Source: Climacium dendroides | Taxonomy: Eukaryota > Streptophyta > Bryopsida > Hypnales > Climaciaceae | Length of the DNA stretch: 64,000 nucleotides | Direction of reading: 5' to 3' | Assembly: GCA_950106755.1 (NCBI GenBank) | Contig: OX467092.1 | Location: forward strand, 10,292,001-10,356,000 | In this document: positions 1 to 29,010 of the stretch, one piece after another | How the letters are laid out: each line of letters begins with the position of its first letter | How positions within the stretch are numbered: the stretch's first letter is position 1 | The notes under the pieces: model-generated | What the model saw: the letters and a program-made list of their open reading frames with translations, nothing else | The model's database searches: none | Told to the model about the DNA's origin: nothing | Program-made: the position numbers and the translations under genes

Positions 1-672
1 TCTGATGAAGGCTCACTAAGTATGGTGAGAGTACACATCTCTTCAACATCAATTACACACAAACACAAGCCTAAACATTAGCATCCAAAACATGGAATGC
101 CAAGGTAAGAGAAGCACGTAAGGTACGGTGAGAGTATTCACTATTTCAACAATTAGTTACACACAAATGCAGGTTTGAACAATAACATCCAAAACCTACA
201 TAAAATGCTAGGATATAATAGGCACACTAGGTATGGTTAGAGTGGGATCCATTGATCCTTCAAAATGTCCAAGTAAACACTGCCATTGCTAATGATATTT
301 GAATGGAAAGATTAATTCAAAACTCAAACTATGCAAACAAAATAAAACATTTTTATAAGTCAAAACCAGTCATCTTCATTACTTATAAAAAAATATCACA
401 CCAAGTCTAATAAGAAAAAAATATTAAGTTTTTCCAATGCAAATCTTGAGGGACACTCTAATGGAGGATATTTGAAGCAACTATTCTAGTTCCAGAAAAG
501 GTCTTTCCACGGAGACAAGAACAAGCCTAGACGAAGTTAGTTATGAGCTCAAATACTAAACTTGAGAAGTTGATTTAAGAAGAATAAATAGTAGGTGGAG
601 ATTTAAGCGATAACTTCTCCTTTTAATTGTGGAGCTCTCCAAGGCTCTTTCTAATTATTAATTATTTGTGAC
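1..672 (+). repeat. Left arm of 670-bp inverted repeat
   Basis: It reads as the reverse complement of 2761-3430 with almost no differences in the stretches compared. Both arms lack the same ~75-bp segment that is present in the related copies at about 14269-14345 and 30285-30360, so one arm was copied from the other after that deletion. Confidence 0.9.
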
Positions 673-892
673 TTTGATATAAAAATATAAATAATACTAA
701 ATTGATATTTAAATCTAAACTTATCCATTTAGTTTTTGGAACTCTCATCAAGACTCTTTATCATAAATTATGATTCTACAAATAAAAAAGAACAAGTGGA
801 GATGTCATTGTAAATTAACTTCTTCATTTATTTTTTGGAATTTCAAAGACTCATTCTATTCAAGTATTATTTGTTCAATTTATTTAATAATA

Positions 893-1294
893 AACTAGCG
901 GTTGGCGCTTGCTTTGCTACGCATTAAATACATTACTTTCATCAATTTTTTATGTGATAGAATGTAGATTAATAAAGTATGTATAATCTTTAAATGAAAA
1001 TATTGACATCTTCATACAATATTCTTTAGAAATACATACATTGTGCAATAGAAAGTAATTAAAGAAAATCTTTATATCATAATTTTCACAAAAAAATCTT
1101 TATAAGCATGAAAACATTACAAGGACACCACCACTTGATAAATTTCTTCACTCACAAACAACGGTGACCAAAATTGATGACTTAAATGCAAATTTGTCAA
1201 ATTGCAAAGACTTTTAAATACTTGGTTGTAGAATCAAAAACTGCTTCAATCTACTAAAGCTTCAAATCATTGGTAATAAAAAAAGAACATTAGA
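893..1294 (-). mobile_element. Helitron-like 3' fragment (truncated)
   Basis: Reverse-complement copy of the 3' part of the Helitron-like element at 13198-13859, including the terminal CTAG followed by T (here ACTAG at about 893). The 5' half is missing because of the deletion junction near 1295. Confidence 0.55.
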
Positions 1295-1335
1295 ATGATT
1301 CTTTATATATATATGGAAAGCTTTGAATCATATCA

Positions 1336-1900
1336 CTTGGGGGGTGCACTTAGTCCTACTACAACATACCACGTGCAAATAAGTGGTTTCTAATAAATTA
1401 TAATTTTAACTTCAAATTTTGAGCATTGTTTACTAATGACTATAGGATTCTACTCTCAAAATTTCAAACTCAAATAAAATATGGGATGAATTCTAGAAGA
1501 GGTTTAAAAAGCACAAAAATGGCATGTTTTTCTAACTCAAATATTTTTAGAGAATACATTTAGATGACCATTACATCAATATTCAACTCAAAATGGGCTT
1601 GCAATTGAGAGTTATTATTAGAAAGTTTTTGCTCCATTTTTAGACAATTTTTTCTTATATAATATAGGGGTGTGAAAGATATTTTTTCAAATCTACAATG
1701 TATCTTTTTACTTCAAAAATTTATAACTAATTATTATTAGCAAATAAAAATATCAATAATTTAAAACATAAAATTTCAAAAGTAGAAAAATCTATTCAAA
1801 TTTTTTCATTTAATTTTATTTAAAATGCAAAAAGTATATAGGAGGTCCACAGTTTTGTTTGCATGTGGTTTTTAATGGACACTCTAAGTGATCCCCCGAG
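1336..1900 (+). mobile_element. Non-autonomous TIR element (565-bp MITE family A)
   Basis: It is bounded by imperfect terminal inverted repeats of the form CTTGGGGGG..CACTTAG and CTAAGTGATCCCCCGAG. Direct flanks tcatatca (1328-1335) and tcatttca (1901-1908) look like an 8-bp target-site duplication with one mismatch. An 8-bp duplication fits hAT-like elements, but the termini are not classical for hAT. There is no ORF. Related copies lie at 10400-10963, 16053-16613 and 26229-26792. Confidence 0.75.
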
Positions 1901-2760
1901 TCATTTCATTTTGATTAATGAGGTTTATTAAAGTTATGAAGAGTTTAGTTTGCGGGTAGTTATGGAATCTCTACTCTAAAATCTTTAGGGGTTAAGATAA
2001 AAGTGAAAGGTGGAAACCTATGATTTAGTACAATTTTTTTTAAAGGAGATCGAAAGAGATTGGGCTTTCTTTTTTTGAGGTTGCCCTTTCACATGCCTTT
2101 TATTTCCATGATTGGCCCTATTGCCCACCCCTAGTTGCCATTTATTCACCCCAAGTAGCCTTTAGTGCATCGAAAGCAAAATCGACATCCACAATCACCT
2201 CTTGGCTACCTCATTTGTCTTTTCTAGGGTCCTCGCAATCACCTTTTGACCACTTGTCTAGATGTACCTCTTAGACCATCAAAGTTAGTGTGGATGGCCA
2301 TTGGATTCTTGGATCTTTAAAGAATTAATTGATAATGATCGTCCAAAAGCCTACACATCCAAGAGGTTTTCATTCATTTGGGTTGCCATACTTTAGCTAG
2401 CCTCTCCAAATTAGCAATTACCATTTGCAAATCAAATCTTCTTCTAGCACTTGTTACACACAAATTTGAAGAACTATAAAAATTTATAATCAATTTCTTT
2501 CTTTCTTGAAAATAACCCTCTCCAAGCAAGTATTATATCCTCAAGCATTGCAAAGTGTACTTGCAAAGATTAGTAGTTTGAGGTTTGGTCGAAGGGGACC
2601 AAAGTTCAAGTCAATGGAGAGCACCTCGGCCTCCAAATTTGAGAGGTTTAAGCATTAGGAAACGTTTCAAGCTTGAAGAGGCCACCACTATCATATTTTC
2701 GGCACCCTAGCAATACAAGTACAGAAGAAATTTAAAAATATTTTTTATTAAAAAAAGTAT

Positions 2761-3430
2761 CACAAATAATTAATAATTAGAAAGAGCCTTGGAGAGCTCC
2801 ACAATTAAAAGGAGAAGTTATCGCTTAAATCTCCACCTACTATTTATTCTTCTTAAATCAACTTCTCAAGTTTAGTATTTGAGCTCATAACTAACTTCGT
2901 CTAGGCTTGTTCTTGTCTCCGTGGAAAGACCTTTTCTGGAACTAGAATAGTTGCTTCAAATATCCTCCATTAGAGTGTCCCTCAAGATTTGCATTGGAAA
3001 AACTTAATATTTTTTTCTTATTAGACTTGGTGTGATATTTTTTTATAAGTAATGAAGATGACTGGTTTTGACTTATAAAAATGTTTTATTTTGTTTGCAT
3101 AGTTTGAGTTTTGAATTAATCTTTCCATTCAAATATCATTAGCAATGGCAGTGTTTACTTGGACATTTTGAAGGATCAATGGATCCCACTCTAACCATAC
3201 CTAGTGTGCCTATTATATCCTAGCATTTTATGTAGGTTTTGGATGTTATTGTTCAAACCTGCATTTGTGTGTAACTAATTGTTGAAATAGTGAATACTCT
3301 CACCGTACCTTACGTGCTTCTCTTACCTTGGCATTCCATGTTTTGGATGCTAATGTTTAGGCTTGTGTTTGTGTGTAATTGATGTTGAAGAGATGTGTAC
3401 TCTCACCATACTTAGTGAGCCTTCATCAGA
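2761..3430 (-). repeat. Right arm of 670-bp inverted repeat
   Basis: Partner of 1-672. It ends exactly where RWP-RK-related DNA begins; the last bases of the arm (aga) are shared with the adjoining gene-derived sequence, a microhomology junction. Confidence 0.9.
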
Positions 3431-4830
3431 AAATGGTAAAATACTTGCACAGGAGCACATGTACCTCTTGTTCTGTTGGTAATGCTTGATGTTCCAAGGA
3501 TTTCATTACCAACACCAAATTTCATGCACCTTGCTTCTCAATTAAGTAACCATGCTACCTTACGTTTGCTCCTTACAAGCATTATTTTCGTGGCATTCCA
3601 AGCCACTTCAGGACAGGCCGCCAGAATCTGATAAATCGGTACCCGAACTAGTTTCTAGAGCGCTATTCTTTTTTTTTTTCTCACCACTCTTGGCGATCCA
3701 ATCAATTAACTGTGCTTGGTAATACTTTGATTTCTTTTATTGTTGTCCACTTTGCTAACAAATAAACCGTCATCTCTTACTTCACTTCACTTAGTCACTT
3801 ACTGTATGTTGATGGTCATCTTGATGATCACTTAGCCTGGCTTCCTTACTACAATATGCAATATAATAACGAGATTCACCTGCAACTAACCTACGACAAG
3901 CTCCCAAATTTAGGACTGCTGAGTTACAGATTGGCGAATGAGGGCGCCAGCTAGCGTGGAAAGTTCCAAGGCCATGAACTTCTACGAATTTCACGAAAGG
4001 AGCGTTCTTCACCTCTGTTGACGACGGTATTACTGCTTCAACTTACTAACTGGGTCTTTCCCTGATTTTGCAGCATTCTCCAGTTGTGAGACCTGCGGCT
4101 TCCTACAAAGAGAATGAGCAACGCAAGCCTGGACGACCTCGAAAGGTTCCCCCCCTTCCAAGGACAGTCCACCCCAACGGAGTGGTGAGGAGGAGCGCGG
4201 AGTGGTGTTCGAAGAGGAGATCCCGATTGCTGAGCGAAGTCCTAAGCGACCGAAAACGGCATCCGTGTCGGATTGAAGCTGGTGTTGGAGTGCAGTCTGA
4301 TGGCCGCAGTCCCAGTGGTATGTACAGTACTAACAGCGGTTTCTAGCTAATGATGATCGTCGTCGGTACATTGCTGCATGGAATGTGGCTGCGTACTAGA
4401 TATGAATTCCTGTTTTTGTTGAAACACTATGGAATATCATTTTTTGTTTACATTCCTAGTGAAGTTACAATGAAAGACATTGCAGTCTATTTCACGGTAG
4501 ATTATCAGTGATTTCTGCCGAATTAAGCTGGTATTGGAGGACAAGGCCTTGTAGCATGGCTGTGGCCAAGTCATATACTGTATGTACAAAATGTTCATTA
4601 GCGTCGGTTGATTAAATCAGGGAAGCTAGAACGAACTACGTCCTCAATATTCCTGTTTTTCCTGTGAAATTGTATCCTTTCTGTATTCGCTGTAAAGTTA
4701 GTAAATATTGGAGGCTATTTTTATCACGGTAGTTTAGTTTTCCCAGATTGCTGCTGAAGCGGGTGTTGAGGGCTAGTTTTAAGCTCCAGCACTTTCGCCG
4801 TCGTCAGAATATATGTTGTGCCCGAGTCGT
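3431..4830 (+). pseudogene. Partial RWP-RK gene copy: last exons and 3' flank (palindrome left arm)
   Basis: This is a plus-strand copy of the minus-strand region 21830-20425 of the RWP-RK locus. It starts inside the third intron, contains the exon 4 counterpart (about 3930-4003), a TACTAAC branch-point-like sequence near 4052, the acceptor ending TTTTGCAG at 4073, and the AT-hook exon from 4074 (KPGRPRKV). The C-tract after the AT-hook is 7 long, against 11 in the gene at 20968-23817, so translation enters a different frame and the acidic C-terminal tail is lost. The exons encoding the RWP-RK domain and coiled coil are absent, so this cannot make a working factor. The copy was joined to the AT-rich repeat block at 3430. 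Confidence 0.85.
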
Positions 4831-4854
4831 AACATATATTCTGAGTGCAACATA

Positions 4855-6172
4855 TATTCTGACGACGGCAAAAGTGCTGGAGCTTAAATTAGCCCTCAAC
4901 ACCCGCTTCAGCAGCAATCTGGGAAAACTAAACTACCGTGATAAAAATAGCCTCCAATATTTACTAACTTTACAGCGAATACAGAAAGGATACAATTTCA
5001 CAGGAAAAACAGGAATATTGAGGACGTAGTTCATTCTAGCTTCCCTGATTTAATCAACTGACGCTGATGAACATTTTGTACATACAGTATATGACTTGGC
5101 CACAACCATGCTACAAGGCCTTGTCCTCCAATACCAGCTTAATTCGGCAAAAATCACTGATAATCTACCGTGAAATAGACTGCAATGTCTTTCATTGTAA
5201 CTTCACTAGGAATGTAAACAAAAAATGATATTCCATAGTGTTTCAACAAAAACAGGAATTCATATCTAGTACGCAGCCACATTCCATGCAGCAATGTACC
5301 GACGACGATCATCATTAGCTAGAAACCGCTGTTAGTACTGTACAAACCTCTGGGACTGCGGCCATCAGACTACACTCCAACACCAGCTTCAATCCGACAC
5401 GGATGCCGTTTTCGGTCGCTTAGGACTTCGCTCAGCAATCGGGATCTCCTCCTCGAACACCACTCCGCGCTCCTCCTCACCACTCCGTTGGGGTGGACTG
5501 TCCTTGGAAGGGGGGGGGGAACCTTTCGAGGTCGTCCAGGCTTGCGTTGCTCATTCTCTTTGTAGGAAGCCGCAGGTCTCACAACTGGAGAATGCTGCAA
5601 AATCAGGGAAAGACCCAGTTAGTAAGTTGAAGCAGTAATACCGTCGTCAACAGAGGTGAAGAACGCTCCTTTCGTGAAATTCGCAGAAGTTCATGGCCTT
5701 GGAACTTTCCACGCTAGCTGGCGCCCTCATTCGCCAATCTGTAACTCAGCAGTCTTAAATTTGGGAGCTTGTTGTAGATTAGTTGCAGGTGAATCTCGTT
5801 ATTATATTGCATATTGTAGTAAGGAAGCCAGGCTAAGTGATCATCAAGATGACCATCAACATACAGTAAGTGACTAAGTGAAGTGAAGTAAGAGATGACG
5901 GTTTATTTGTTAGCAAAGTGGACAACAATAAAAGAAATCAAAGTATTACCAAGCACAGTTAATTGATTAGATCACCAAGAGTGGTGAGAAAAAAAAAAAG
6001 AATAGCGCTCTAGAAACTAGTTCGGGTACCGATTTATCAGATTCTGGCGGCCTGTCCTGAAGTGGCTTGGAATGCCACGAAAATAATGCTTGTAAGGAGC
6101 AAACGTAAGGTAGCATGGTTACTTAATTGAGAAGCAAGGTGCATGAAATTTGGTGTTGGTCAATGAAATGCC
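4855..6172 (-). pseudogene. Partial RWP-RK gene copy (palindrome right arm)
   Basis: This is the inverted partner of 3431-4830 and is collinear with 20425-21748 of the RWP-RK locus. The AT-hook exon lies at about 5370-5594 on the minus strand, with a homopolymer tract of 10. That leaves the same disrupted frame as the 7-base tract in the other arm, since the two differ by 3. It ends after the tract preceding ccttggaac in the parent, where about 20 bases of the AT-rich repeat block are spliced in, followed by RWP-RK upstream DNA. No RWP-RK domain exon is present. Confidence 0.85.
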
Positions 6173-6429
6173 AAGATAAGAGAAGCACCCTGGTCAGTAG
6201 TGAAAATGGAGGTAACAGCAGGAGTCGGTAGCAGGGCAACGCCATAGCCGGCACCGCCAATGTCCGAGCTCCCAACGTTAACGGCCCCGACCCTGTCACC
6301 ATACTTGTAGCCTCCGCGCTCTCTCCCACATATCTGCAGCACCCAGGCTGCGCCCATGCAAACCCAGCTTACAATCTCTGAAACGCTCCACACTTGCGCC
6401 TTGGTCTCGTCATCTTGGGATACACACAC
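6160..6429 (-). pseudogene. Unrecognised ORF fragment in palindrome left arm
   Basis: About 80 codons read as a plausible protein piece, with the motifs VWSVSEIVSWVCMGAAW and YGDRVGAVNVGSSDIGGAG, then ALLPTPAV before the repeat junction. I do not recognise the family. No in-frame ATG precedes it and a TGA lies just upstream, so it is either an exon fragment or chance coding. The inverted copy at 7113-7379 and the one at 24155-24421 keep the frame but have lost residues (GVCLGAADVWERG), so this arm is the more ancestral-looking version. In the parental arrangement it lies upstream of, and divergent from, the RWP-RK gene. Confidence 0.35.
6171..6192. other. Patchwork junction with ~20-bp filler
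   Basis: Between the end of the palindrome arm and the next segment sits gccaagataagagaagcac, a near-match to internal repeat-block sequence at about 100-119 (gccaaggtaagagaagcac). It is followed directly by cctggtcagtagtg, which belongs to RWP-RK upstream DNA. Short filler copied from elsewhere is typical of template-switching repair. Confidence 0.6.
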
Positions 6430-7345
6430 AATATCGTAGAGTCACATTGCATTCTCCAGTGTAGAGAAACGCCAGGTTCCAAGAGTTTTTGTCGGTTTGC
6501 AGTTGGTGGTGAGAGTGTGGAGAGTTGGTGGGAGGCGCATAAGCTTCGGATGAAATGGGTTAAGAATTGTTGATGTATGTCTTTGTGATTTTGGTTGTTT
6601 TGGATGCATTTGAGAAATGTTGAGAAATAGAAATCGGTACATTGGGGATACGTGCTACTTACGGTGGGTTTCTGATGAGGGCTTCCGAAAGGGCAGTGAG
6701 CTGGGACTGAAAAACGACCGGTAACGAGTCGTTTGGGTTGCGGTTGCAGTATAGGGCGAGTATACATGGGCGAGTAGACATGGACAAACGCCAAGTGAAA
6801 TGATTCAAAACTAAATGGGTCGTTTGTGTTGCGGTTTGATCTCACCTCCCTTCTGGAAGCCCTCATCAGAAACCCACCATAAGTAGCACATACCCCCAAT
6901 GTACCAATCTCCATTTCTCAACATTTCTCAAACGTGTTCAAAACAACCAAAATCACAAAGACATACATCAACAATTCTTAACCCGTTTCATCCGAAGGCT
7001 TATGCGCCTCTCACCAACTCTCCACACTCTCACCACCAACTGCAAACCGACAAAAACTCTTGGAACCTGGCGTTTCTCTACACTAGAGAATGCAATGTGA
7101 CTCTACGATATTGTGTGTGTATCCCAAGACGACGAGACCAAGGCGCAAGTGTGGAGCGTTTCAGAGACTGTAAGCGGGGTTTGCCTGGGTGCTGCAGATG
7201 TGTGGGAGAGAGGGCCGAGGTGTGGTGATAGGGTCGGGGCCGTTGACCTTGGGAGCTCGGACATTGGCAGTGCCGGCTATGGCGTTGCCCTGCTACCGAC
7301 TCCTGCTGTTGACCTCCATTTTCACTACCGACCAGGGTTGTTTTT
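6190..7345. repeat. Palindrome of RWP-RK upstream sequence
   Basis: The left arm (about 6190-6780) runs in the same sense as the RWP-RK gene's upstream region and reaches a sequence like its putative start (gtagacatggac). The right arm (about 6850-7345) is inverted and continues without a break into repeat block copy I. The 6780-6850 spacer repeats short pieces of the arm (gtcgtttg, gttgcggtt). The right arm is closer to the 23.9-24.4 kb copy than to its own left arm. Confidence 0.8.
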
Positions 7346-7379
7346 TCATTTTTTTAAAAGTTGCAAAGTGGCAATATGA
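7113..7379 (+). pseudogene. Degraded copy of the unrecognised ORF (palindrome right arm)
   Basis: This is the same reading frame as the minus-strand ORF at 6160-6429, but shortened by small deletions after SETVSG, and it runs into non-coding repeat DNA (FFHFFKSCKVAI). It is nearly identical to 24155-24421. The protein family is not recognised. Confidence 0.3.
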
Positions 7380-8514
7380 AATGGTACAGTGGTGCTCCAA
7401 ATTTTAACATTCATCCACATATTGGATAGAAAATATCACATTAGGACACATCACATTATTTTCATCCACAAATCTAGTGATTTCATCCAAGTTTTTTGGC
7501 ATTTTTTTGGTCAAATTATTTTTTTCTTCTGAAAGGTGCTACCATAAAGTCATAAAATAATACCTCATTTTGACTAAAATTTGAAGTTTCAAGTACCGGT
7601 ATTAGGAGTTGTTAAAAGCCCCAAGGATTTGGGGTTGGGCATAGCTCTTGTTTTCTTTGCTAGCTCTTGTAATAACAAGCATAATTTCTCATTTGTGTCA
7701 AAGAGTTTTGATGAGTGCCATTGTTGGAATGAAAAGCAACAAATCCTTGGTTTGATGCTTTGGACAAAGTCAATTCCCATGGTGTGACGGGCGGTGTGTA
7801 TAGGGCCTGAGTACATATTCAATTGCGACATGCTGATCGAGTACGTGACTTTTCTATGAAGAAAGATTGACGAAATTGTACGATTTTTGACCAAATGTCA
7901 CCATTGGTAAGATTGATGAAAGATGTTTAGTTGGATGGTACAGCTATTATATGATTCATTAGACCCCAATCATCCAAAATCATTTCCTTTGGAGGTTGAA
8001 TATCTTTTGATTAAGTTGAATGCGAATTTTTAGGATTTCATTTCACAAGATTTGGAATATTTTGTGACCTTCAACACTATTCAAGGCTTTATCGAATCTT
8101 CCGTGACCTTTAGTAGTAGACTCCTTCCATCTTAATAAGTTAGTAGAAGAACTAGTTTAGTTTTGATCCTTGAATGAACATAGTCTCATTTTGAGAGGAG
8201 TAAAAAAACTAAGCTTACAGATTCAATGGATTTTTCAAAATCTGACATGGCACTACTAGCGCCACATTAGGATCATGCAATGCTGGCTATCTTTTTTTAA
8301 TATTTTCTATTTTTAAATTTTTATTTTTTGAAGAAAATTTAATAAAAAATATTTTTAAATTTCTTTTGAGCTTGTATTTCTAGGGTGCCAAAAATTTGAT
8401 AGTGGTGGCCTCTTCAAGCTTGAAACGTTTCCTAATGCTTAAACCTCTCAAATTTGGAGGTCGAGGTGCTCTCCATTGACTTGAACTTTAGTCCCCTTCG
8501 ACCAAACCTCAAAC

Positions 8515-9778
8515 ATTAGAGAAATTCTGAGCCCTCCGGAAGCCCGCTCCACAGTGACCAAACCAGTCTATTAACCGTCCTGGAATTAGTAGGGGCATAT
8601 AGGTACAGTGCATGGTCAGAGTGTGTGAACTTCGCCAAAGATGTCAAGACTCAAGTAATGAGAGTGTAGTGGAAACCTCTATAATAATCAAGTACTTCAG
8701 TTTTAGTTAATCCCATTAATTGACAAATTAATCAATTTTACTAAACATAAGCAAAGAGAAGTAAACTTTGAAGCTTGATGTCAAAGTAATAAGAGAACAT
8801 TCAAATATTCGAATTAGCTCCAATTGTCAAATAGATGAGGATATTAGTGAATGAGGAGAGAAGTTATTTATACAAGTGGTATAGTAGTAGGTAAAACAAT
8901 GCATGCGGGATATGTAAATTAGGATTAAGATGAGCACAACCACCCATAGTTGAGTCAAAAGCTGAAATTGTATTCAAAGTTGAATTTCAGACCCCATTTA
9001 GGCATAATAGAATGATTTTTTTCAAAAAATTTAAACTGAATAAATTTAAAAAATAAAACTAGAATTCATCTCCAAAAATCCGTTTGAAGTTTAGAGTCTT
9101 CAATAAAAAGTTATGGACAAAATTTGGAGAAGGTGTTTGAAAATTTCAAAGAAAATTTTTCTTTCAACCTCTTTTAGAATTTTGTCTATAACTTTGAATT
9201 GAAGAATGTAAAACTCAAACAGATTTTTGGAGATGAAAACTATCTTGATTCTACAACTTTATTTAGTTCAAAGTTTTTTGAAAAAAATCATTGTTTTATG
9301 CTTAAATGGGGTTTGAAATTCGACTTTGAACATAATTCTTGCATTTGACAATGAGTGATCTATCTTCTAAATATCCCATATCCTTTGACGATTCACCATG
9401 GACAATTGATTTTCTATAAAAACAAACTCTTCACCATTCTTCTAACCAAATGTTAATGATTAGTCTCTTCCATGATGTTATCAAAAAATTGCTTGATGGT
9501 AGATGTCATTGAACTATTTTTGACATTTGCTTCTTTTTCATAACTCGATTTTTAACAAGGTATGCAATAATCAATATTAAGCTGGATTATGATAGTTGAA
9601 CCTTTGATTACTTAATTACTTATACTTGGGTGCTGAACCTTGACAGTCATCGGACGTTGCGACTTCAGGTGGGGCGAGTATAGGGGAAAAATTAATCATC
9701 AAGCAAAGTTAAAAGTAATCATGGGGTCCTTTTAGCTGCTGTGGAGCGGTCTTCTGGAGGGCTGAGAATTTCTCTAAT
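8515..9778. mobile_element. 1264-bp non-autonomous TIR transposon with internal foldback
   Basis: The ends are inverted repeats of about 40 bp beginning ATTAGAGAAATTCTGAGCCC on the left, with only a few mismatches to the right end. The insertion interrupts sequence that is continuous at 25548 in copy II (caaaccactaacc), so it arrived after the duplication or was lost cleanly from copy II. No clear target-site duplication is visible. An internal hairpin of about 370 bp (about 8965-9335) pairs sequence around gaatttcagaccccattta with its complement. There is no ORF. Confidence 0.75.
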
Positions 9779-10399
9779 GCCACTAACCTTTGCTAGTACA
9801 CTTTGTAATGCTTGAGGGTATAATACTTGCTTGGAGAGGGTTATTTTCAAGAAAAAAAGAAATTGATTATAAATTTTTATGGTTCTTCAAATTTGTATGT
9901 AACAAGTGCTAGAAGAAGATTTGATTTGCAAATGGTAATTGCTAATTTGGAGAGGCTAGCTAAAGTATGGCAACCCAAATGAATAAAAACCTCTTGGCCG
10001 TGTGTAGGCTTTTAGACAATCACCATCAATTAATTCTTTAAAGATCCAAGAACCCAATGGCAATCCACACTAACTTTGAAAAGACAAATGAGGTAGCCAA
10101 GAGGTGATTGTGGATGTCGATTTTGCTTTTGATGCACTAAAGGCTACTTGGGGTGAATAAATGGCAACTAGGGGTGGGTAATAGGGCCAATCATGGAAAT
10201 AAACGGCATGTGAAAGGGCAACCTCAAAAAAGAATGTCCAATCTCTTTCAATCTCCTTTAAAAAAATTGTACTAAATCATAGGTTTCCACCTTTCACTTT
10301 TATCTTAACCCCTAAAGATTTTAGAGTAGAGATTCCACAACTACCCACAAACTAAACTCTTCATAACTTTGATAGACCTCATTAATAAAAATGAAATGA

Positions 10400-10963
10400 C
10401 TCGGGGGATCACTTAGAGTGTCCATTAAAAACCACATGGAAACAAAACTTTGGACCCCCTATACACTTTTTGAATTTTAAATAAAATTAAATGAAAAAAT
10501 TTGAATAGATTTTTCTACATTTGAAAGTTTATGTTTTGAATTATTGATATTTTATTTGTTAATAATAATTAGTTACAAATTCTTGAAGTAAAAAGATACA
10601 TTGTAGATTTGAAAAAATATCTTTCACACCCCTATATTATATAAGAAAAAATTGTCTAAAAATGGAGCAAAAACTTTCTAAAAATAACTCTCAATTGCAA
10701 GTCCATTTTGAGTTGAATATTGATGTAATGGTCATCTAAATGTGTCCTCTAAAAATATTTGAGTTAGAAAAACATGCCATTTTTGTGCTTTTTAAACCTC
10801 TTCTAGAATTCATCCCATATTTTATTTGAGTTTGAAATTTTGAGAGTAGAATCCTATAGTCATTAGTAAACAATGCTCAAAATTTGAAGTTAAAATTATA
10901 ATTTATTAGAAACCACTTATTCGCACGTGGTATGTTGTAGTAGAACTAGGTGCACACCCCAAG
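10400..10963 (-). mobile_element. MITE family A copy
   Basis: 564-bp reverse-orientation copy flanked by perfect 8-bp direct repeats tgaaatga (10392-10399 and 10964-10971). See 1336-1900 for the family. Confidence 0.8.
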
Positions 10964-10977
10964 TGAAATGATTCAAA

Positions 10978-10980
<3 letters not shown>

Positions 10981-11022
<42 letters not shown>
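10981..11022. repeat. AT microsatellite
   Basis: Uninterrupted TA dinucleotide run just distal to MITE A. The matching position in copy II (about 26814-26845) has a shorter run, and copy 0 (about 1300) only a few units. Confidence 0.9.
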
Positions 11023-11026
<4 letters not shown>

Positions 11027-11379
11027 TTTAAAATATTTTATTTTAAAAAAATTATGTTTTATAAATTTTCTAAGGTACCTAGTTTGCCCATAGTTCAAAG
11101 AAAATTACATATCATACAATAATTTTTTAAACATGTAATCAAAAGTTATGGAAATTGTTGGTCCTTGAAGCTACTCTTTAGGCACATGATGTTGTGTGAA
11201 AACGTCAAAGGGAAAAATAAAAATTCCATTTGTAGTGAGCTACCCAAATTGCTATGTTGCCAAAAAATCGCAATTTGGTCCTTTAGGGGTTAAAATCAAC
11301 ATGACAAATACTAGTATACTATACACTAAGCATGAATTGCAAATAATAAAAATGAAATTACTTATTTAAATCTCAACTT

Positions 11380-12340
11380 TTGAATTTTGAATTTTAAATA
11401 CTAATACGACAAATAATATAGTATTTGGACGAGTCTTGGAAATTATCAAAAATAATGGAGAAGTTCACTTAAAGTTTTCCTTTTTGCTCAATAGTTTTAA
11501 ACAAAAGTAAGTGACAAATGATACATACACAAGATATTTCTTTGAGATTTAAAAAATATATATAAATAGAAAAGTTTTTCCTTTAAATCTCCACCTTTTA
11601 TATTTTCATATAAAATCAAAGTAAGAAATCATTCTTGATTAGAAGGAGTTTAGAATAATTGCAAAATACAATTCTACTTGATTATCCACACATTATTTTC
11701 TTAATTAGATCAATGTTACAAACAAAACATGAATAGAATAATCTTTGAGATTTGCAAAAACTAAATAGGATTGTTTCTACTTAAATATTTATGCTTTATT
11801 CTTAATTTGTAAATCAATTAAAAAGTAACTTATTATTAGAAGGATTGTTTAAGAATTGCAAAAAAATGATGAAATTTTTCTATCTAAACATTCAATCCAT
11901 ATTATTAATTTCAAATTCAATGTAACAAATAAAACTTGATTAGATTGAGTTTTTCTCATTAAATTTCTAAAACATAAATTGAGAAAAATCTTACTTAAAT
12001 CTCTTGCCATTATTTTTTATTTGTAAAATTAAAGTGGCAAATAATTCATCAATAGGAAGAGTCATTCTTTAAGAATTGCAAAAGATGAACAAAACCTTTT
12101 ACTTAATTGTCCATTTGATATTAGTTGAATTTTTAGTTATTAGTTCAATGTAACAAATAATAATTTATTAGGATGAGTTTTTAAAAAGTGAATAAAATAT
12201 GGAGAATTTCTTACTTAAATCACCACCATCCATTTTTTATTTACAAAATTAAAGAGACAAATAATTCCATGATTGAAAGGAATTATGGAGAATTGCAAAA
12301 ATTAAATAGAAAAGTCTTACTTAAATCTCCACCCTTTATC
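11380..12340 (+). repeat. Diverged ~115-bp tandem array
   Basis: Eight or so irregular units share an order of motifs: aaaatcaaagtgacaaataat, then a tgattagaaggag-like stretch, then gaattgcaaaaa, then cttacttaaatctccacc. The same family appears at 27230-28180, in short runs at 590-900, 13880-14130 and 29890-30150, and independently at 43090-43770. It is AT-rich and without coding potential. Confidence 0.7.
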
Positions 12341-12344
12341 ATCA

Positions 12345-13185
12345 TCATACTACTAAAATCATAAATCTCTCTGTAATATCACAAATGCTACCATTAATAC
12401 TAGGGGCTCGTGCTTGCTATGCTATGCATTCATTGTATCACATATTAGTAAAAATTTGATATATTTGAATAGAATGCATGATAATGATTCATTAAGTCTT
12501 TAAAATAATTATTTTAAATATTTTGTAAAAATATTTTCAATCATGCATACATAGAAATCGTATTTTCACACAATGTGATATTACAGAAATAGAGTACCAG
12601 TTCACAATTACTTCTCTAATATCATTTTACAAAGGGTGATATTATAGAAATAATATAATCGTTGCAATTGTGGTGATATTAAATATATTATAGAGGTAGC
12701 AAATCCATTGCTTCTCTTGGCTTTACACTTCTTTGCACTTCTATGATTTTGTGCTTTTGTGAGCTTTGAACTTTCATGATTTCAGTTTTCTATTGCTACT
12801 ACCAAATGATTTTGAGAAATTGATTCAATTTAAGCGATTTTGGATTCGAGAACAATTAATTTGCTCACAAAGTTTTTGAGATTTATAAATTTTTCTTTTC
12901 AATTCTTCAATTTAGGTTGCCATTTTTTGTATCAATGGAGTCAAATTTCTAATGCATTCTAATATATGTGTATCTTTTATAGTATTTACCATTGCATATG
13001 TTTCATTCATCATTCATTAAATTTCTATTGTACATTTCAATATATGCTTACTTATAAAAAAAATTATACAAAAATTTTAGTCATTTTTATTTGAAGGTTT
13101 ATTGAAATTTTTATTCTACATTCTATCTAATACATATAAATTCTTATGAAATTCTAATAATGAATGCGTAGCATAGCAAGCACCA
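12345..13185. mobile_element. Nested Helitron-like ends
   Basis: A 5'-type end (TCATACTACTAAAATCA at 12345) runs only about 55 bp before an inverted 3'-type end (ACTAGGGGC with the conserved gcttgctatgctatgcatt) at about 12399. A second 3'-type end in forward orientation (aatgcgtagcatagcaag) lies at about 13152-13180, so two 3' ends face outward. Copy II has the same arrangement at about 28183-28980. This suggests repeated insertion of Helitrons into one another. Confidence 0.5.
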
Positions 13186-13197
13186 ATTATATATATA

Positions 13198-13859
13198 TCA
13201 TACTACTAAAATCACAAGGCCTTTCATAATATCACATTTTTACACTCATAGATCCGATCCCTCTATAATATCACATTTATACACAATGTGAAATTATAAA
13301 GTTTCAACGGTCATTTCATCTCTGTAATATCACACAATGTAAAAATGTGATATTATGGAAGGCCTTGTGATATTATGGAAGTTTTTTTATTTCTTGACTC
13401 CACACTTCATTTTACTTCCAAAATTCTAGGATTTTCTAAGATTTGAATGTTCTCAATTCTAATGTCCTTTTTTTATAACCAAATGATTTGAAGCTTTAGT
13501 AGATTGAAGCAATTTTTGATTCTACAACAAAGTATTTAGAAGTCTTTGCAATTTGACAAATTTGCATTTCAAGTCATCAATTTTGGTCACCATTGTTTGT
13601 GAGTGAAGAAATTTATCAAATGGTGGTGTCCTTGTAATGTTTTCATTTTTGTAAAGATTTTTTTGTGAAAATTATGATATAAAGATTTTCTTTAATTACT
13701 TTCTATTGCACAATGTATGTATTTCTAAAGAATATTGTATGAAGATGTCAATATTTTCATTTAAAGATTATACATACTTTATTAATCTACATTCTATCAC
13801 ATAAAAAATTGATGAAAGTAATGTATTTAATGCGTAGCAAAGCAAGCGCCAACCGCTAG
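13198..13859 (+). mobile_element. Non-autonomous Helitron-like element (662 bp)
   Basis: It begins TC (TCATACTACTAAAATCAC), ends CTAG, and lies between a flanking A and a flanking T, the signature of Helitron insertion into AT. A GC-rich, partly self-complementary stretch (gcgtagcaaagcaagcgc) precedes the CTAG end, as Helitron 3' hairpins do. There is no RepHel ORF. A small foldback near the 5' end pairs cacaaggcctttcataatat with its complement at about 13355-13375. A related copy with a decayed 3' end (ttgg) is at 29008-29870, and a fragment at 893-1294. Confidence 0.6.
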
Positions 13860-14584
13860 TTTATTATTAAATAAATTGAACAAATAATACTTGAATAGAA
13901 TGAGTCTTTGAAATTCCAAAAAATAAATGAGGAAGTTAATTTACAATGACATCTCCACTTGTTCTTTTTTATTTGTAGAATCATAATTTATGATAAAGAG
14001 TCTTGATGAGAGTTCCAAAAACTAAATGGATAAGTTTAGATTTAAATATCAATTTAGTATTATTTATATTTTTATATCAAAGTCACAAATAATTAATAAT
14101 TAGAAAGAGCCTTGGAGAGCTCCACAATTAAAAGGAGAAGTTATTGCTTAAATCTCCACCTACTATTTATTCTTCTTAAATCAACTTTTCAAGTTTAGTA
14201 TTCGAGCTTATAACTAACATGGTCTAGTCTTGTTCTTGTCTCCGTCCAAAGACCTTTTCTGGAACTAGAAGAATTTTTTTATCAATGTGAGAAGTCTTTA
14301 AATACTGTATAAAGCTTGAATAGTTTGAACTAATAAATTTCAAGTTGTTGCTTGAAATATCCTCCATTAGACTGTCCCTTAAGATTTGCATTGGAAAAAC
14401 TTAATATTTTTTTCTTATTAGACTTGGTGTGATATTTTTTTATAAGTAATGAAAATGACTGGTTTTGACTTATAGAAATGTTTTGTTTTGTTTGCGTAGT
14501 TTGAGTTTTGAATTAATCTTTCCATTCAAATATCATTAGCAATGGCAGCATTTACTTGGACATTTTGAAGGATCAATGGATACT

Positions 14585-15015
14585 ACTCTAACCATACCTA
14601 GTGTGCCTATTATATCCTAGCATTTTATGTAGGTTTTGCCGTTTTGGATGTTATTGTTCAGACCTGCGTTTGTGTGTAACTAATTGTGGAAATAGTGAAT
14701 ACTCTCACCATACCTTACGTGCTTCTCTTATCTTGGGATTGGATGTTTTGGATGCTAATGTTTAGGCTTGTGTTTGTGTGTAATTGATGTTGAAGAGATG
14801 TGTGCTCTCACCATACTTAGTGAGCATGTCTTGTCCTAGCATTTGATGTTTTGGATGTCATTGTTTAGGCATGTGATTGTGCGTAATTGATCATTGAAAC
14901 AATGTGTGCCCTCACCATACCTTGCATGTCTTATTTAATATCCTTGCATTTGATGTTTTCAATGGTAATGTTTGGGCTTGTATTTGTGTGTAGTTGATCG
15001 TTGAAAAGATGTGAG
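14585..15015 (+). repeat. ~105-117-bp tandem units
   Basis: About four diverged units are recognisable by ctctcaccatacct (about 14585, 14702, 14804, 14909), each with a gatgttttggatgctaatg-like stretch. The inverted arms of 1-3430 end inside this array, so the array may be a breakpoint hotspot. Confidence 0.75.
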
Positions 15016-20015: not shown

Positions 20016-20089
20016 TAAAATCACGTACATTGCGGACTCCTGACTCCTAAATTTCGAAGTCACCTTGTTTTGTGTGCACTAATTTTGAT

Positions 20090-20967
20090 CCCTGATAAAC
20101 CAAGGACCATTCATGATCGTTCTAACCATTTGTGTTCACATTGGAGAATGATAAACACTCATCAGCACTCCAGTCAAGATTGAAGCCATTCAAAGAGGTT
20201 TCCACCAAGCCCTGTGACAATTGAACTCTGAATCGTGAAATAGCCTCCAACATCTTGTAAGTTGCAACTTCACTACGAGGTACAAGATCAGAATTGACAT
20301 TCCATGGTCAGTCCTCCAGCAAAACAGGAATGAACGTCAAGTACGTAGCCCAAACTTCCATGAACCAACCGACCTGCGTGACCCACATTGGAAACAGCTG
20401 TGAAAACGACTCGGGCACAACATATATTCTGACGACGGCAAAAGTGCTGGAGCTTAAAACTAGCCCTCAACACCCGCTTCAGCAGCAATCTGGGAAAACT
20501 AAACTACCGTGATAGAAATAGCCTCCAATATTTACTAACTTTACAGCGAATACAGAAAGGATACAATTTCACAGGAAAAACAGGAATATTGAGGACGTAG
20601 TTCGTTCTAGCTTCCCTGATTTAATCAACCGACGCTGGTCAACATTAGAAACCGTTGAACTTACAGTATATGACTTGGCCACAGCCATGCTACAATACCT
20701 TGTCCTCCAATACCAGCTTAATTCCGCAGAAATCACTGATAAACTAGCGTGAAATAGACTGCAATGTCTTTCATTGTAACTTCACTAGGAATGTAAACAA
20801 AAAATGATATTCCATAGTGTTTCAGCAAAAACAGGAATTCATATCTAGTACGCAGCCACATTCCATGCAGCAATGTACCGACGACGATCATCATTAGCTA
20901 AAAACCGCTGTTAGTACTGTACAAACCACTGGGACTGCCCCCATCAGACTGCACTCCAACACCAGCT
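20090..20967 (-). other. RWP-RK 3' flank with three diverged ~240-bp repeats
   Basis: Downstream of the RWP-RK stop, a short phrase like gaagctggtgttggag recurs at intervals of about 235-250 bp, with similar intervening DNA (attcctgttttt, then ctatttcacggtag). In the plus-oriented copy the three occurrences are near 4276, 4525 and 4755. These may be decayed exon duplications or 3' UTR repeats. Beyond about 20425 the sequence is no longer shared with the palindrome arms. Confidence 0.5.
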
Positions 20968-23817
20968 TCAATCCGACACGGGTGCCGTTTTCGGTCGCTT
21001 AGGACTTCGCTCAGCAATCGGGATCTCCTCCTCGAACACCACTCCGCGCTCCTCCTCACCACTCCGTTGGGGTGGACTGTCCTTGGAAGGGGGGGGGGGA
21101 ACCTTTCGAGGTCGTCCAGGCTTGCGTTGCTCATTCTCTTTGTAGGAAGCCGCAGGTCTCACAACTGGAGAATGCTGCAAAATCAGGGAAAGACCCAGTT
21201 AGTAAGTTGAAGCAGTAATACCGTCGTCAACAGAGGTGAAGAACGCTCCTTTCGTGAAATTCGCAGAAGTTCATGGCCTTGGAACTTTCCACGCTAGCTG
21301 GCGCCCTCATTCGCCAATCTGTAACTCAGCAGTCCTAAATTTGGGAGCTTGTTGTAGATTAGTTGCAGGTGAATCTCGTTATTATATTGCATATTGTAGT
21401 AAGGAAGCCAGGCTAAGTGATCATCAAGATGACCATCAACATAGAGTAAGTGACTAAGTGAAGTGAAGTAAGAGATGACGGTTTATTTGTTAGCAAAGTG
21501 GACAATAATAAAAGAAATCAAAGTATTACCAAGCACAGTTAATTGATTAGATCACCAAGAGTGGTGAGAAAAAAAAAAGGAGAACAGCGCTCTAGAAACT
21601 AGTTCAGGTACCGATTTATCAGATTCTGGCGGCCTGTCCTGAAGTGGCTTGGAATGCCACGAAAATAATGCTTGTAAGGAGCAAACGTAAGGTAGCATGG
21701 TTACTTAATTGAGAAGCAAGGTGCATGAAATTTGGTGTTGGTCAATGAAATCCTTGGAACATCAAGCATTACCAACAGAACAAGAGGTACATGTGCTCAT
21801 GTGCAAGTATTTTACCATTTTCTGGGTTATATGCGCAGGAGTACCGTGGACGAGCTGGTCCCTCTCCAGCTGCAGCTTGCGGACTTCGGACCGAATACGC
21901 TCTTCGGTCGAATTATTCAACTGGCCCTCGGCAAGTGCACGTAGAAGGCGGCGGATGGTGTTGTCCAAGCTCCTGACCTAAATGCATAACCAGAAAACCA
22001 AGTTACTATAACATGCAATACAGTTCTTACAAACGCTCCATGCATGAGCAAGCCATCAGTTCTGTTCAACATTGTTTTTCAATGCACATCAATTTCACTA
22101 AATTGTGCGACATACATGACATTCTCACGATTCAACTATTCAAGGTGGGCGTCACGAATCGTCAATATATACCAATCCTAATTATGTGAGCTTTCTGCTG
22201 TCAGTTACGTTCATGTCACAATTTTGACGCTCTCAATTGTGACAATAGGACGCAATTGACGTTAAAAGGCTCACATGCAAGCATGGAATTGAAGTACAGA
22301 AGCAAGATTCTAAGTTACAACAGAGGCTCTCAGTATGTCTGTGCAAGTGAGATCGAAAGCCTTGGGTACTAAGCAGCTTCGGCTGTATTATAAAAGAAAT
22401 ACAAGAAGTCAACCAAGGTCAGTTCGTTTGTGCAAGTCTTGTGTAAAGAAAACAGAGCAGAAAACAAATTAAAAGCAATATTCACTAGGGGAAATCATGT
22501 CCTGTTTCATCAGCTTGCGTGGACTCCACTGGTTTTAGTCACATTATAGTATTTCGAAGACCCTGAGTGTGAGTAGTTCACCCACCACCAATTCAAGTAT
22601 GAGTAAACAGATGCCACAACAAACACACACGCGCATGGAACTTGAATGAATTCTAAAGACTCGAAGCTACCTTACGGCCAGGCCATCGTTCCAGCCCAAA
22701 CGTTCGGCAAGCGTTCTTCAGCGTTGTCTGCGCGACTCCCAGCGTCTTCGCAGCATTGACAAGATTCAGATGGAAGTACTTAGACAAATCAGACATTTTT
22801 AGCCGCTGCGTTCCACCTCCCTGCAGCCGAAACAACAACATAGAAATCAATACAACACAACCTGCACAACATTCGTGACATTCACAACACTCACTCGTGA
22901 CACGTACTCACAGTCAACTGCAGACCATGATAGCATGTGCAAACATTATATACTCCAAACTAAAGTAGACATAGACTATATTGAACCTCACCGTCTTGCT
23001 GGGTCGCTTCACCTCCTTCACGAGCTCGGAACCCCCATTGGGCAGCTCGCTATCCACACCTTCGCCATCTCCTCTTGGCGGTGGCGGCGACTCCAAAGAG
23101 TTGTGCACTTTCGCCGACGAGTGCGACGGCCATGAAGACTTCTCGTTCGAGTTGCCATCGCCGCTCACAAACCGCTTCGCAGTACTCGCGACAGGATTCG
23201 TGACTTTGGGCGCCTTGTGGTACTCAGGGGTGGGGAGTGCGTCGCCGGGAGTTGAAAAAGCTCGCAACTGCAACGCCAGGAGCGCGACGTTGGTGGTGGC
23301 GCCATGCGGACACTGGATGCTCTGGTCGAGAAGCTGGCCCAGCACCGCGGCTGCTAGTGACTGGAAACCTGCAGTGGGCGGAGGCATCGCAGTGGACTTC
23401 GGCGCCGCGCTTGTGGGGAGGAGGAGGCCTGGGGAGCTGCTGGGGGCTGCGACGCTGGCGTTGCAGTTGGTGGCTTTGGCGTTGGTGATTTGCAGGGTGG
23501 ACTCGGAGTCTGGGCGTGTCGTGGGGGTGACGTTGCTGAGCATCGGTGGTGGGGGAGTTGGTTGGTTGGAGTTCACGATCGCGAGAAGTTGCTTGTGGCC
23601 CATGCAGACGATCACGTCGCCGAGCATGGTGGCCACATCCAGATCCTCGGGCTCGGAGCCTCGATGTAAGCCAGGTGCGAGCGCTGGATGCTGTCGTCGT
23701 TGTCGATGAAAGCCAGACGCCGCGCGCTCCGCTGCCACACAGGAAACAGAATGTCAGCAAGCACCACTCACAACGACATATGTTCATTAGTCTCTTAGTA
23801 ATCGACCACGAGTCCAT
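20968..23817 (-). CDS. RWP-RK transcription factor with candidate AT-hook
   Basis: Predicted nuclear DNA-binding regulator with five or six exons on the minus strand. The best-supported joins keep phase: 23731-22992 (Pro/Ala/Ser-rich, with MLGDVIVCMGHKQL), 22820-22671 (RWP-RK domain: LSKYFHLN, AAKTLGV, LKNACRTFGL, ERWPGRK), 21977-21845 (VRSLDNTIRRLL, then a charged coiled-coil stretch), 21318-21245 and 21174-20968 (KPGRPRKV AT-hook, then acidic FEEEIPIAERSPKRPK and stop). A possible first exon is 23817-23772 (MDSWSITKRL) with a GTGAGT donor but only a 40-nt intron; otherwise the start may be the ATG at 23627. The model gives about 449 residues. Exons 2 and 3 are the firmest. The 21245 donor (GTTCTT) is weak. 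The AT-hook exon depends on an 11-C tract: lengths of 7 or 10, as in the two palindromic copies, change the frame. RKD or NLP subclass cannot be told from this. Confidence 0.75.
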
Positions 23818-23819: not shown

Positions 23820-24155
23820 CTACTCGCCCTACACTGCAACCGCAACACAAACGACTCGTTACCGGTCGTTTTTCAGTCCCAGCTCACTGCCCTTCCGGAA
23901 TCCCCTCATCAAAACCCACCGTAAGTCAGCACGTACCCCAATGTACCGATCTCCACTTCGCAACATTTCTCAAATGCGTCGAAAACAACCAAAATCACAA
24001 AGACATACATCAACAATTCTTAACCCGTTTCATCCAAAGGCTTACACGCCTCCCACCAGCTCTCCACACTCTCACCACCAACTGCAAACCGACAAAAACT
24101 CTTGGAACCTGGCGTTTCTCTACACTAGAGAATGCAATGTGACTCTACGATATTG
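23820..24155 (-). promoter_or_regulatory. Upstream flank of RWP-RK gene
   Basis: This is a moderately GC-rich stretch immediately upstream of the putative start and is the part copied into both arms of the 6190-7345 palindrome. It contains the repeated phrase aacgagtcgtttg, read on the minus strand. No clear TATA box was identified. Promoter function is inferred only from position. Confidence 0.35.
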
Positions 24156-24421
24156 TGTGTGTATCCCAAGACGACGAGACCAAGGCGCAAGTGTGGAGCG
24201 TTTCAGAGACTGTAAGCGGGGTTTGCCTGGGTGCTGCAGATGTGTGGGAGAGAGGGCCGAGGTGTGGTGATAGGGTCGGGGCCGTTGACCTTGGGAGCTC
24301 GGACATTGGCAGTGCCGGCTATGGCGTTGCCCTGCTACCGACTCCTGCTGTTGACCTCCATTTTCACTACCGACCAGGGTTGTTTTTTCATTTTTTTAAA
24401 AGTTGCAAAGTGGCAATATGA
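24155..24421 (+). pseudogene. Degraded unrecognised ORF, copy II
   Basis: Nearly identical to 7113-7379, and divergent from the RWP-RK gene. The frame (VWSVSETVSGVCLG, then GDRVGAVDLGSSDIG) is open but ends in AT-rich repeat DNA. A better preserved relative is the minus-strand ORF at 6160-6429. Function unknown. Confidence 0.3.
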
Positions 24422-26228
24422 AATGGTACAGTGGTGCTCCAAATTTTAACATTCATCCACATATTGGATAGAAAATATCACATTAGGACACATCACATTA
24501 TTTTCATCCACAAATCTAGTGATTTCATCCAAGTTTTTTGGCATTTTTTTGGTCAAATTATTTTTTTCTTCTGAAAGGTGCTACCATAAAGTCATAAAAT
24601 AATACCTCATTTTGACTAAAATTTGAAGTTTCAAGTACCGGTATTAGGAGTTGTTAAAAGCCCCAAGGATTTGGGGTTGGGCATAGCTCTTGTTTTCTTT
24701 GCTAGCTCTTGTAATAACAAGCATAATTTCTCATTTGTGTCAAAGAGTTTTGATGAGTGCCATTGTTGGAATGAAAAGCAACAAATCCTTGGTTTGATGC
24801 TTTGGACAAAGCCAATTCCCATGGTGTGACAGGCGGTGTGTATAGGGCCTAAGTACATATTCATTGCGACATGCTGATCGAGTACGTGACTTTTCTATGA
24901 AGAAAGATTGACGAAATTATACGATTTTTGACCAAATGTCACCATTGGTAAGATTGATGAAAGATGTTTAGTTGGATGGTACAGCTATTATATGATTCAT
25001 TAGACCCCAATCATCCAAAATCATTTCCTTTGGAGGTTGAATATCTTTTGATTAAGTTGAATGCGAATTTTTAGGATTTCATTTCACAAGATTTGGAATA
25101 TTTTGTGACCTTCAACACTATTCAAGGCTTTATCGAATCTTCCGTGACCTTTAGTAGTAGACTCCTTCCATCTTAATAAGTTAGTAGAAGAACTAGTTTA
25201 GTTTTGATCCTTGAATGAACATAGTCTCATTTTGAAAGGAATAAAAAAACTAAGCTTACAAATTCAATGGATTTTCAAAATTTGACATGGCACTACTAGC
25301 GCCACATCATGATCATGCAATGCTCGCTACTTTTTTTAATTTTTAATTTTTTAATTTTTTAATTTTTTGAAGAAAATTTAATAAAAAATATTTTTAAATT
25401 TCTTTTGTACTTGTATTGCTAGGGTGCCAAAAATTTGATAGTGGTGGCCTCTTCAAGCTTGAAACGTTTCCTAATGCTTAAACCTCTCAAATTTGGAGGT
25501 CGAGGTGCTTTCCATTGACTTGAACTTTAGTCCCCTTCGACCAAACCTCAAACCACTAACCTTTGCAAGTACACTTTGCAATGCTTGAGGGTATAATACT
25601 TGCTTGGAGAGGGTTATTTTCAAGAAAAAAAGAAATTGATTATAAATTTTTATGGTTCTTCAAATTTGTGTGTAACAAGTGCTAGAAGAAGATTTGATTT
25701 GCAAATGGTAATTGCTAATTTGGAGAGGCTAGCTAAAGTGTGGCAACCCAAATGAATGAAAACCTCTTGGATGTGTAGGCTTTTGGACGATCACCATCAA
25801 TTAATTCTTTAAAGATCCAAGAACCCAATGGCAATCCACACTAAATTTGATGGTCTAAGGGGCACATCCATACAAGTGGTCAAAAGGTGATTGCGGGTAT
25901 TCTAGAAAAGATAAATGAGGTAGCCAAGAAGTGATTGTGGATGTCGATTTTGCTTTCGATGCACTAAAGGCTACTTGGGGTGAATAAATGGCAACTAGGG
26001 GTGGGCAATAGGGCCAATCATGGAAATAAAAGGCATGTGAAAGGGCAACCTCAAAAAAAGAAAGCCCAATCTCTTTCGATCTCCTTTAAAAAAAATTGTA
26101 CTAAATCATAGGTTTCCACCTTTCACTTTTATCTTAACCCCTAAAGATTTTAGAGTAGAGATTCCATAACTACCCGCAAACTAAACTCTTCATAACTTTG
26201 ATAAACCTCATTAATCAAAATGAAATGA

Positions 26229-26792
26229 CTTGGGGGATCACTTAGAGTGTCCATTAAAAACCACATGGAAACAAAACTTTGGACCCCCTATATACTTTTT
26301 GAATTTTAAATAAAATTAAATGAAAAAATTTGAATAGATTTTTCTACTTTTGAAAGTTTATGTTTTGAATTATTTTTATTTTTATTTGCTAATAATAATT
26401 AGTTATAAATTTTTGAAGTAAAAAGATACATTGTAGATTTGAAAAAATATCTTTCACACCCCTATATTATATAAGAAAAAATTGTCTAAAAAAGGAGCAA
26501 AAACTTTTTAAAAAGAACTCTCAATTGAAAGCCCATTTTGAGTTGAATATTGATGTAATGGTCATCTAAATGTGTTCTCTAAAAATATTTGAGTTAGAAA
26601 AACATGCCATTTTTGTGCTTTTTAAACCTCTTCTAGAATTCATTCCGTATTTTATTTGAGTTTGAAATTTTGAGAGTAGAATCCTATAGTCATTAGTAAA
26701 CAATGCTCAAAATTTGAAGTTAAATTATAATTAATTAGAAACCACTTATTCGCACGTGGTATGTTGTAGTAGAACTAAGTGCACACCCCAAG
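26229..26792 (-). mobile_element. MITE family A copy
   Basis: Orthologous to the copy at 10400-10963 within the duplicated block, with the same perfect 8-bp flanks tgaaatga (26221-26228 and 26793-26800). Confidence 0.8.
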
Positions 26793-26811
26793 TGAAATGA
26801 TTCAAAGCCTT

Positions 26812-26813
<2 letters not shown>

Positions 26814-26845
<32 letters not shown>
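26814..26845. repeat. AT microsatellite
   Basis: TA run at the same relative place as 10981-11022 but of different length. Confidence 0.85.

Positions 26846-26849
<4 letters not shown>

Positions 26850-28974: not shown

Positions 28975-28978
<4 letters not shown>

Positions 28979-29008: not shown

Positions 29009-29010
<2 letters not shown>

Follow-up and report, generated by a model that had tools for sequence, protein, structure and literature searches.

How did both ends of one gene come to lie side by side as two palindromes, with the middle of the gene missing from between them? The stretch that raises this question is 64,000 nucleotides of the moss Climacium dendroides (contig OX467092.1, here C41, positions 10292001-10356000; hereafter the window). 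It carries G1, a copy of an RWP-RK gene, and to the left of it palindrome A, made of the gene's 3′ half, and palindrome B, made of its upstream flank. The first-pass annotation had explained the pair by an inverted duplication followed by loss of the core of the gene. We favor another account, to which we give a probability of roughly three in four: the palindromes are birth-and-death debris of a young, unstable moss RWP-RK gene cluster, and this debris holds a latent hairpin. The palindromes would then be by-products, paralogous fragments placed head to head by repeated template-switching repair and not by one inverted duplication.

The assembly totals 412.6 Mb in 123 contigs, of which C41 makes up 28.6 Mb. 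We compared the window with itself by self-BLAST and repeat finding and used 216 kb of C41 as a wider stretch. Negative coordinates denote bases to the left of the window's start on C41, so that -1399..671 is C41:10290601-10292671. Searches of the genome scored the best candidates only and hence are not exhaustive.

Palindrome A was found at 3500-6169 with 97.6% identity, and palindrome B at 6187-7338 with 85.6% identity including gaps. Both had been reported from the letters alone, at 3431-6172 and 6190-7345, and those coordinates are right within about 70 bases. Arm A1 (3427-4830, minus strand) corresponds to 21824-20406 of the gene copy and arm A2 (4848-6169, plus strand), which is the 3′ half of the left unit, to 20418-21751, each at about 97% identity. 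Between the two arms is a centre insert of 17 bp (4831-4847). After a short junction at 6170-6186, palindrome B follows with arm B1 (6187-6769, minus strand; 24380-23814 of the upstream flank), a centre at 6770-6840, and arm B2 (6841-7338, plus strand; 23883 onward). Inverted arms of 1.3 kb at 97.6% identity are far above chance. In the 216 kb of C41 we counted 57 inverted matches of at least 300 bases, 18 of them with a spacer below 20 kb; an identity above 95%, arms longer than 1 kb and a spacer below 3 kb were combined only in palindrome A and in a 99.7% pair at -1399..671 and 2760..4830. The other self-inverted stretches among those 18, palindrome B included, are 73-86% alike. Neither tblastn nor blastn with 7-base words detected a second copy of the gene's core (21825-23813) in the window, which bears out the earlier observation that the RWP-RK and coiled-coil region is single there. 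The only gene part that recurs in the window is exon 4, which is present in both A arms.

The 99.7% pair tells how palindrome A was assembled. The A block extends beyond the left edge of the window, immediately outside which is an additional 3′ half that we call P. It follows gene coordinates 20083-21824 collinearly before it joins an inverted far flank. The piece that spans this join, -1399..671, recurs inverted at 2760-4830 over 2071 bp with 6 substitutions, all of them transitions, and 0 indels. A1 forms the right part of this inverted copy, so that A1 and its twin carry the identical novel join of 3′ half to far flank; the join came first and the inverted copying later. On the left, beyond -1399, P stays collinear with the gene copy, as does the far flank on the right, beyond 671, whereas the inverted copy ends at 4830 and 2760. 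Because collinearity continues at -1399..671 where the inverted copy stops, that piece would most simply be the source and 2760-4830 the copy. A1 differs from A2 by 17 substitutions and 4 indels in 1318 bases (1.3% substitutions), and from P by 6 substitutions and 0 indels in 1331 bases; the corresponding counts of substitutions and indels are 13 and 4 for P against A2, 26 and 4 for P against G1, and 37 and 8 for G1 against G3, a further gene copy on C41. By these counts, the A arms were distinct paralogs already when they were brought head to head. The shared join and the twin at 6 substitutions rule out that arm A2 folded back locally to give palindrome A. The idea of an inverted duplication with subsequent core loss thus survives in part: the left block does come from a duplicate gene locus whose pieces are inverted and whose core is gone, but the idea that palindrome A duplicated the 3′ half it contains in inverted orientation is not supported, since A1 belongs to the 2071-bp copy with its 6 substitutions.

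Palindrome B probably has a different history. B1 fills the place in the left unit where the core would be expected. B1 and B2 differ by 29 substitutions in 496 bases (5.8%), a divergence similar to that of B2 from G1 (25 in 497) or of G1 from G3 (27 in 518). Because the B arms are more diverged than the A arms, we read B as older than A from these counts. A single event producing both palindromes is ruled out by the arm divergence (17/1318 in A against 29/496 in B). B1 may have arisen by fold-back or may derive from a different copy as a fragment, and the shared location suggests that core loss and B1 insertion were one event.

We examined five junctions, namely the A centre, the join of A2 to B1, the B centre, 2752-2760, and 3430; the joins near 1300 and at an insertion of the left unit (8515-9779) lie outside this set. 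Four of the five junction pieces were searched against the 216-kb stretch, and the A centre was read from the alignment. At the A centre, the first 14 bases of the insert (AACATATATTCTGA) repeat the bases just inside arm A2. At the join of A2 to B1, 6171-6188 is identical to window 14719-14736 in inverted orientation, and 6167-6188 matches 96-117 and 3314-3335 at 95% (BLAST E 9.7e-5). In the B centre, the 19 bp at 6791-6809 are identical to 10959-10977 and 26788-26806 (E 6.8e-5). Two junctions therefore hold inserts that match elsewhere in the repeat unit and one repeats neighboring bases. At 2752-2760 the search of the 216-kb stretch returned no copied insert, only matches of at most 15 bases, and at 3430 it returned the twin at the join of P to the far flank and the expected homologous stretches, with no additional insert.

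Rearrangements formed by fork stalling and template switching (FoSTeS) or by microhomology-mediated break-induced replication (MMBIR) carry short inserts matching nearby sequence. The locus combines direct with inverted duplications, deletions, and copied inserts at 3 of the 5 junctions, and the inserts are compatible with template switching. FoSTeS/MMBIR template switching is reported to underlie complex rearrangements [PMC2621351], and the likeness lies in discontinuous direct and inverted duplications with deletions; the events here are historic ones reconstructed from one assembly, and the pathway is the one we infer. Candidate repair processes would be a MMBIR/FoSTeS-like one or end joining with copied fillers. 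In outline, the gene locus would have been duplicated, and the left copy would have lost its core, an inverted upstream-flank fragment now standing in the core's place. Later, the 2071-bp piece, in which the far flank already adjoined a second 3′ half, would have been copied in inverted orientation beside the left unit's 3′ half. The products would presumably lack a function.

G1 lies on the minus strand at 20968-23627, with exons at 23627-22992, 22820-22671, 21977-21816 and 21174-20968 and introns that all follow GT-AG; its model has 384 codons. Exon 2 (22671-22820, minus strand) carries the RWP-RK domain (PF02042, E 2.8e-19; 69.2 bits, curated cut-off 29.3), and the copy G2 also matches the profile (E 4.6e-20). 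Exons 3 and 4 may be coiled-coil and AT-hook-like, by our own reading of the translation. The genome search with the core (10 matches, 5 candidates) placed it at five loci: G1, G2 and G3, all inside about 85 kb of C41, and Ca and Cb on a second contig, C35. There, at C35:20660091-20684485, the two copies are inverted relative to each other as a convergent pair, with 91% and 79% likeness over two stretches, about 14-19 kb apart. In the five-way alignment, G2, Ca and Cb have no stop through exons 1-3; in exon 4, G2 terminates at the expected stop, and Ca and Cb stay open beyond that point for as far as the alignment extends. Open here means open across the aligned exons, the true first exon of the family not having been found. 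In exon 1, one and the same 1-bp deletion sets G1 and G3 apart from G2, Ca and Cb, and the downstream ATG that starts the 384-codon model is exclusive to G1 in this alignment.

The ratios of nonsynonymous to synonymous substitution (dN/dS) are 0.27 for Ca-Cb, 0.55 for G2-Ca and 0.64 for G2-Cb; in the seven pairs that include G1 or G3 they are 0.70 (G3-Ca), 0.82 (G2-G3), 0.83 (G1-G3), 0.87 (G1-Ca), 0.87 (G3-Cb), 1.02 (G1-Cb) and 1.12 (G1-G2). These are simple counts over 270 gap-free codons in the frame of G1, without error bars, and each pair blends two branches. By these values G1 and G3 look released from constraint. Because of the exon 1 deletion and the unconstrained ratios, G1 is probably a pseudogene or a truncated gene, and the broken exon 1 frame rules it out as an intact parent gene. 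The earlier picture of one gene losing its core is not supported, as five core copies were found and the window copy is frameshifted in exon 1. In the A arms, the run of C in exon 4 has 7 bases in A1 and 10 in A2, one base short of the 11 in G1, so that the exon 4 frame is lost in both arms.

The RWP-RK family profile scored 33 candidates genome-wide, with 17 matches listed and 14 above the cut-off; the bacterial controls for this profile gave matches in 4 of 14 genomes and 0 above the cut-off. For the 384-residue model, no protein homolog appeared among the 7993 candidates sharing most words with it (E 0.001), in a collection that we infer to be poor in plant proteins. Region 212-325 of the model likewise had no homolog among 234 candidates of the same collection at E 1, and a PDB search with G1 exon 2 gave no match.

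We hypothesized that the palindromes could instead be a natural silencer. Palindrome A, and perhaps B, would be transcribed into double-stranded RNA and processed into small interfering RNA (siRNA) that silences the RWP-RK paralogs, with the 3′ half acting against mRNA and the upstream flank against the promoter. Two palindromes covering both ends of one gene suit this idea, as does the finding that gene fragments form a long and nearly perfect inverted repeat, of the kind described for the poplar gene RR9. Perfectly pairing 21-nucleotide windows number 988 of 1384 in palindrome A (A1 against A2) and 145 of 563 in palindrome B. The A stem has perfect 21-nucleotide windows at every locus (763 at G1, 650 at G3, 224 at G2, 21 at Ca and 18 at Cb), reaches exon 4 in G1 (136/195) and G3 (106/193), and finds no match over 91 kb of C41 beyond the cluster. 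The distribution over the family speaks against silencing. Exon 4 of the open-frame copies is nearly unmatched (2/484 in G2, 2/506 in Ca, 0/518 in Cb), and beyond exon 4 G2 matches more only in intron 3 (174/631) and the downstream flank (47 windows). G1 and G3, which the stem matches best, carry a frameshift already. Matches to the B stem are scarce outside G1 (134 windows in G1, 22 in G3, 21 in G2, 0 in Ca and 8 in Cb). Transcription of palindrome A could give rise to siRNA directed at G1 and G3; in the other copies, exon 4 would scarcely be a target. A latent hairpin would meet mainly broken copies.

The substitution pattern was also considered. Substitutions private to the four arms comprise 34 transitions and 6 transversions, against 15 and 18 in the G1 column (Fisher p = 0.00045), as would be expected of methylated cytosine. 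However, this test is post hoc, and in the G1 column changes on the G1 branch are mixed with those on the stem. A weaker bias of the same kind is present in the far-flank copies U0 and L together (54:25 against 16:19, p = 0.036). Because U0 and L show it too, the transition bias is not special to the palindromes.

The layout resembles that of the poplar Y chromosome, where five homologous arms of incomplete RR9 fragments stand as inverted repeats and may yield small RNAs for RNA-directed DNA methylation [PMC7465354]. Like the male-specific RR9 (ARR17-like) repeats of Populus trichocarpa, the moss locus has several incomplete arms of one regulator gene, near to each other and inverted, and arm likeness is 90-95% there and 86-98% here [PMC7465354]. 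In contrast to the poplar system, the gene family is another, open-frame copies in the same cluster hardly match the stems in exon 4, and the moss case is known from sequence alone [PMC7465354]. Taken together, silencing is possible, weakly supported and, in our estimate, unlikely. A fuller version, in which a hairpin locus aimed at both gene ends was built recently by template switching among dead copies, would control gametophyte RWP-RK expression, possibly in linkage to sex, and would be an independent counterpart of poplar RR9/ARR17, strikes us as improbable.

A further possibility takes up the ampliconic pattern and the sex-chromosome or otherwise non-recombining location on which the first-pass annotation speculated; the palindromes would then be maintained by arm-to-arm gene conversion. 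The host belongs to the mosses, which have UV sex chromosomes, and the 99.7% inverted pair together with the cluster of inverted gene copies fits such a region. The algal MID mating-type genes belong to the RWP-RK family; RWP-RK genes are reported at algal mating loci [PMC5601483], and a factor of this family is located on the U chromosome of Ceratodon [PMC8000587]. Our gene shares with both the domain family, and with Ceratodon that it comes from a moss [PMC5601483, PMC8000587]. The arms hold gene fragments and no complete genes. Because they differ by 1.3% substitutions in A and 5.8% in B (17/1318 and 29/496), there is no homogenisation in either palindrome. Recent copying accounts for the 99.7% pair, although conversion would fit it too, and the same gene clade also stands as an inverted pair on C35. 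We consider an ampliconic origin quite improbable.

Assemblies are notoriously error-prone at palindromes and at inverted pairs as alike as 99.7%, and the arrangement could be an artefact. However, the arms differ mainly by substitutions, unlike copies of one read, some junction inserts match other sequence, and the contig around the block is 28.6 Mb long and free of N across the 216 kb examined. An artefact is very unlikely. A fold-back or terminal inverted repeat transposon with captured gene pieces would share the inverted arms and the short spacer, but a genome search with 3431-6172 matched only RWP-RK loci on C41 and C35 (26 matches, 7 best candidates), with no dispersed copies bearing the same ends among the best candidates scored, and we consider it extremely improbable.

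Several observations weigh against the debris account that we prefer. The tree clusters P, A1 and A2 at 89/90 only, unstarred, and the site patterns within these three are thin, with 3 sites uniting P with A1 and 2 uniting P with A2; the argument for the history of palindrome A is carried by the shared join and the collinearity. The five-row tree leaves the relations of B1, B2 and G1 unsettled, and the history of B is weaker than that of A. Two of the five junctions have no copied insert, and the inserts found are short. G1 retains a 384-codon frame and an intact domain, so that translation from its own ATG is possible, and the C-run lengths may be sequencing errors. The arrangement is known from the assembly, where an error has the small chance given above. 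Clustered gene families evolving by birth and death keep tandem and inverted copies of varied age, some open and some broken. The moss cluster is like them in its tandem and inverted copies of varied age with open and broken frames, and differs from typical ones in that the fragments form palindromes covering both gene ends. In the literature surveyed, mostly without subscription papers and seen in part, we met no account of moss RWP-RK palindromes. Taken together, we conclude that the locus is recent and rather ordinary in kind.

Further blocks flank the palindromes. Block U0 (1-2752, minus strand) is the far flank inverted with a deletion, 30627-29466 joined to 26824-25377 by self-BLAST. Block F (2760-3430, plus strand) is an inverted copy of 1-671 at 100% identity and forms the left part of the 2071-bp copy. 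From the upstream flank outward, the left unit (6841-14825, plus strand) directly repeats 23883-30627 as far as 14606, apart from the insertion at about 8515-9779, and its segment 14347-14825 is shared with 1-481 and 2950-3420. The insertion, present in the left relative to the right unit, contains an old self-inverted stretch at 8954-9349 (78%). A tandem array of period 103 at 14641-15013 stands at the left unit's end and includes a site matching the insert between A2 and B1.

Elsewhere in the window, a Ty3/gypsy retrotransposon occupies 35087-40942, with 370-bp long terminal repeats that are 95.4% alike, a chromodomain and reverse transcriptase, and a frame broken by in-frame stops. A Transposase_21 coding piece (tnp2, CACTA-type) lies at 55078-56052 (E 3.6e-58), and other open frames at 49-59 kb may share its element. 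A two-piece direct repeat of about 0.3 and 1.3 kb, 95-97% alike, stands at 31112-33070 and 62011-63567, about 30.5 kb apart. The window yielded no Rfam hit at the gathering threshold, and an ARAGORN call of tRNA-Pyl at 35039-35121 was dismissed as spurious in a plant genome. A LEAFY exon of the assembly matched PDB chain 4bhk, presumably a Physcomitrella protein, with 103 of 106 residues by a visual count of the alignment and 242.8 bits, the four other listed chains scoring at most 173; from this match we take the organism to belong to the mosses.

A view confined to one window can misread such debris as one inverted duplication with core loss. The locus would illustrate how a hairpin can originate by accident, when repeated template-switching repair joins fragments of dead paralogs head to head at a stage at which no function exists yet. 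If small RNAs were found here, the early steps of hairpin regulation, which has been proposed for poplar sex determination, would be open to study in a moss.

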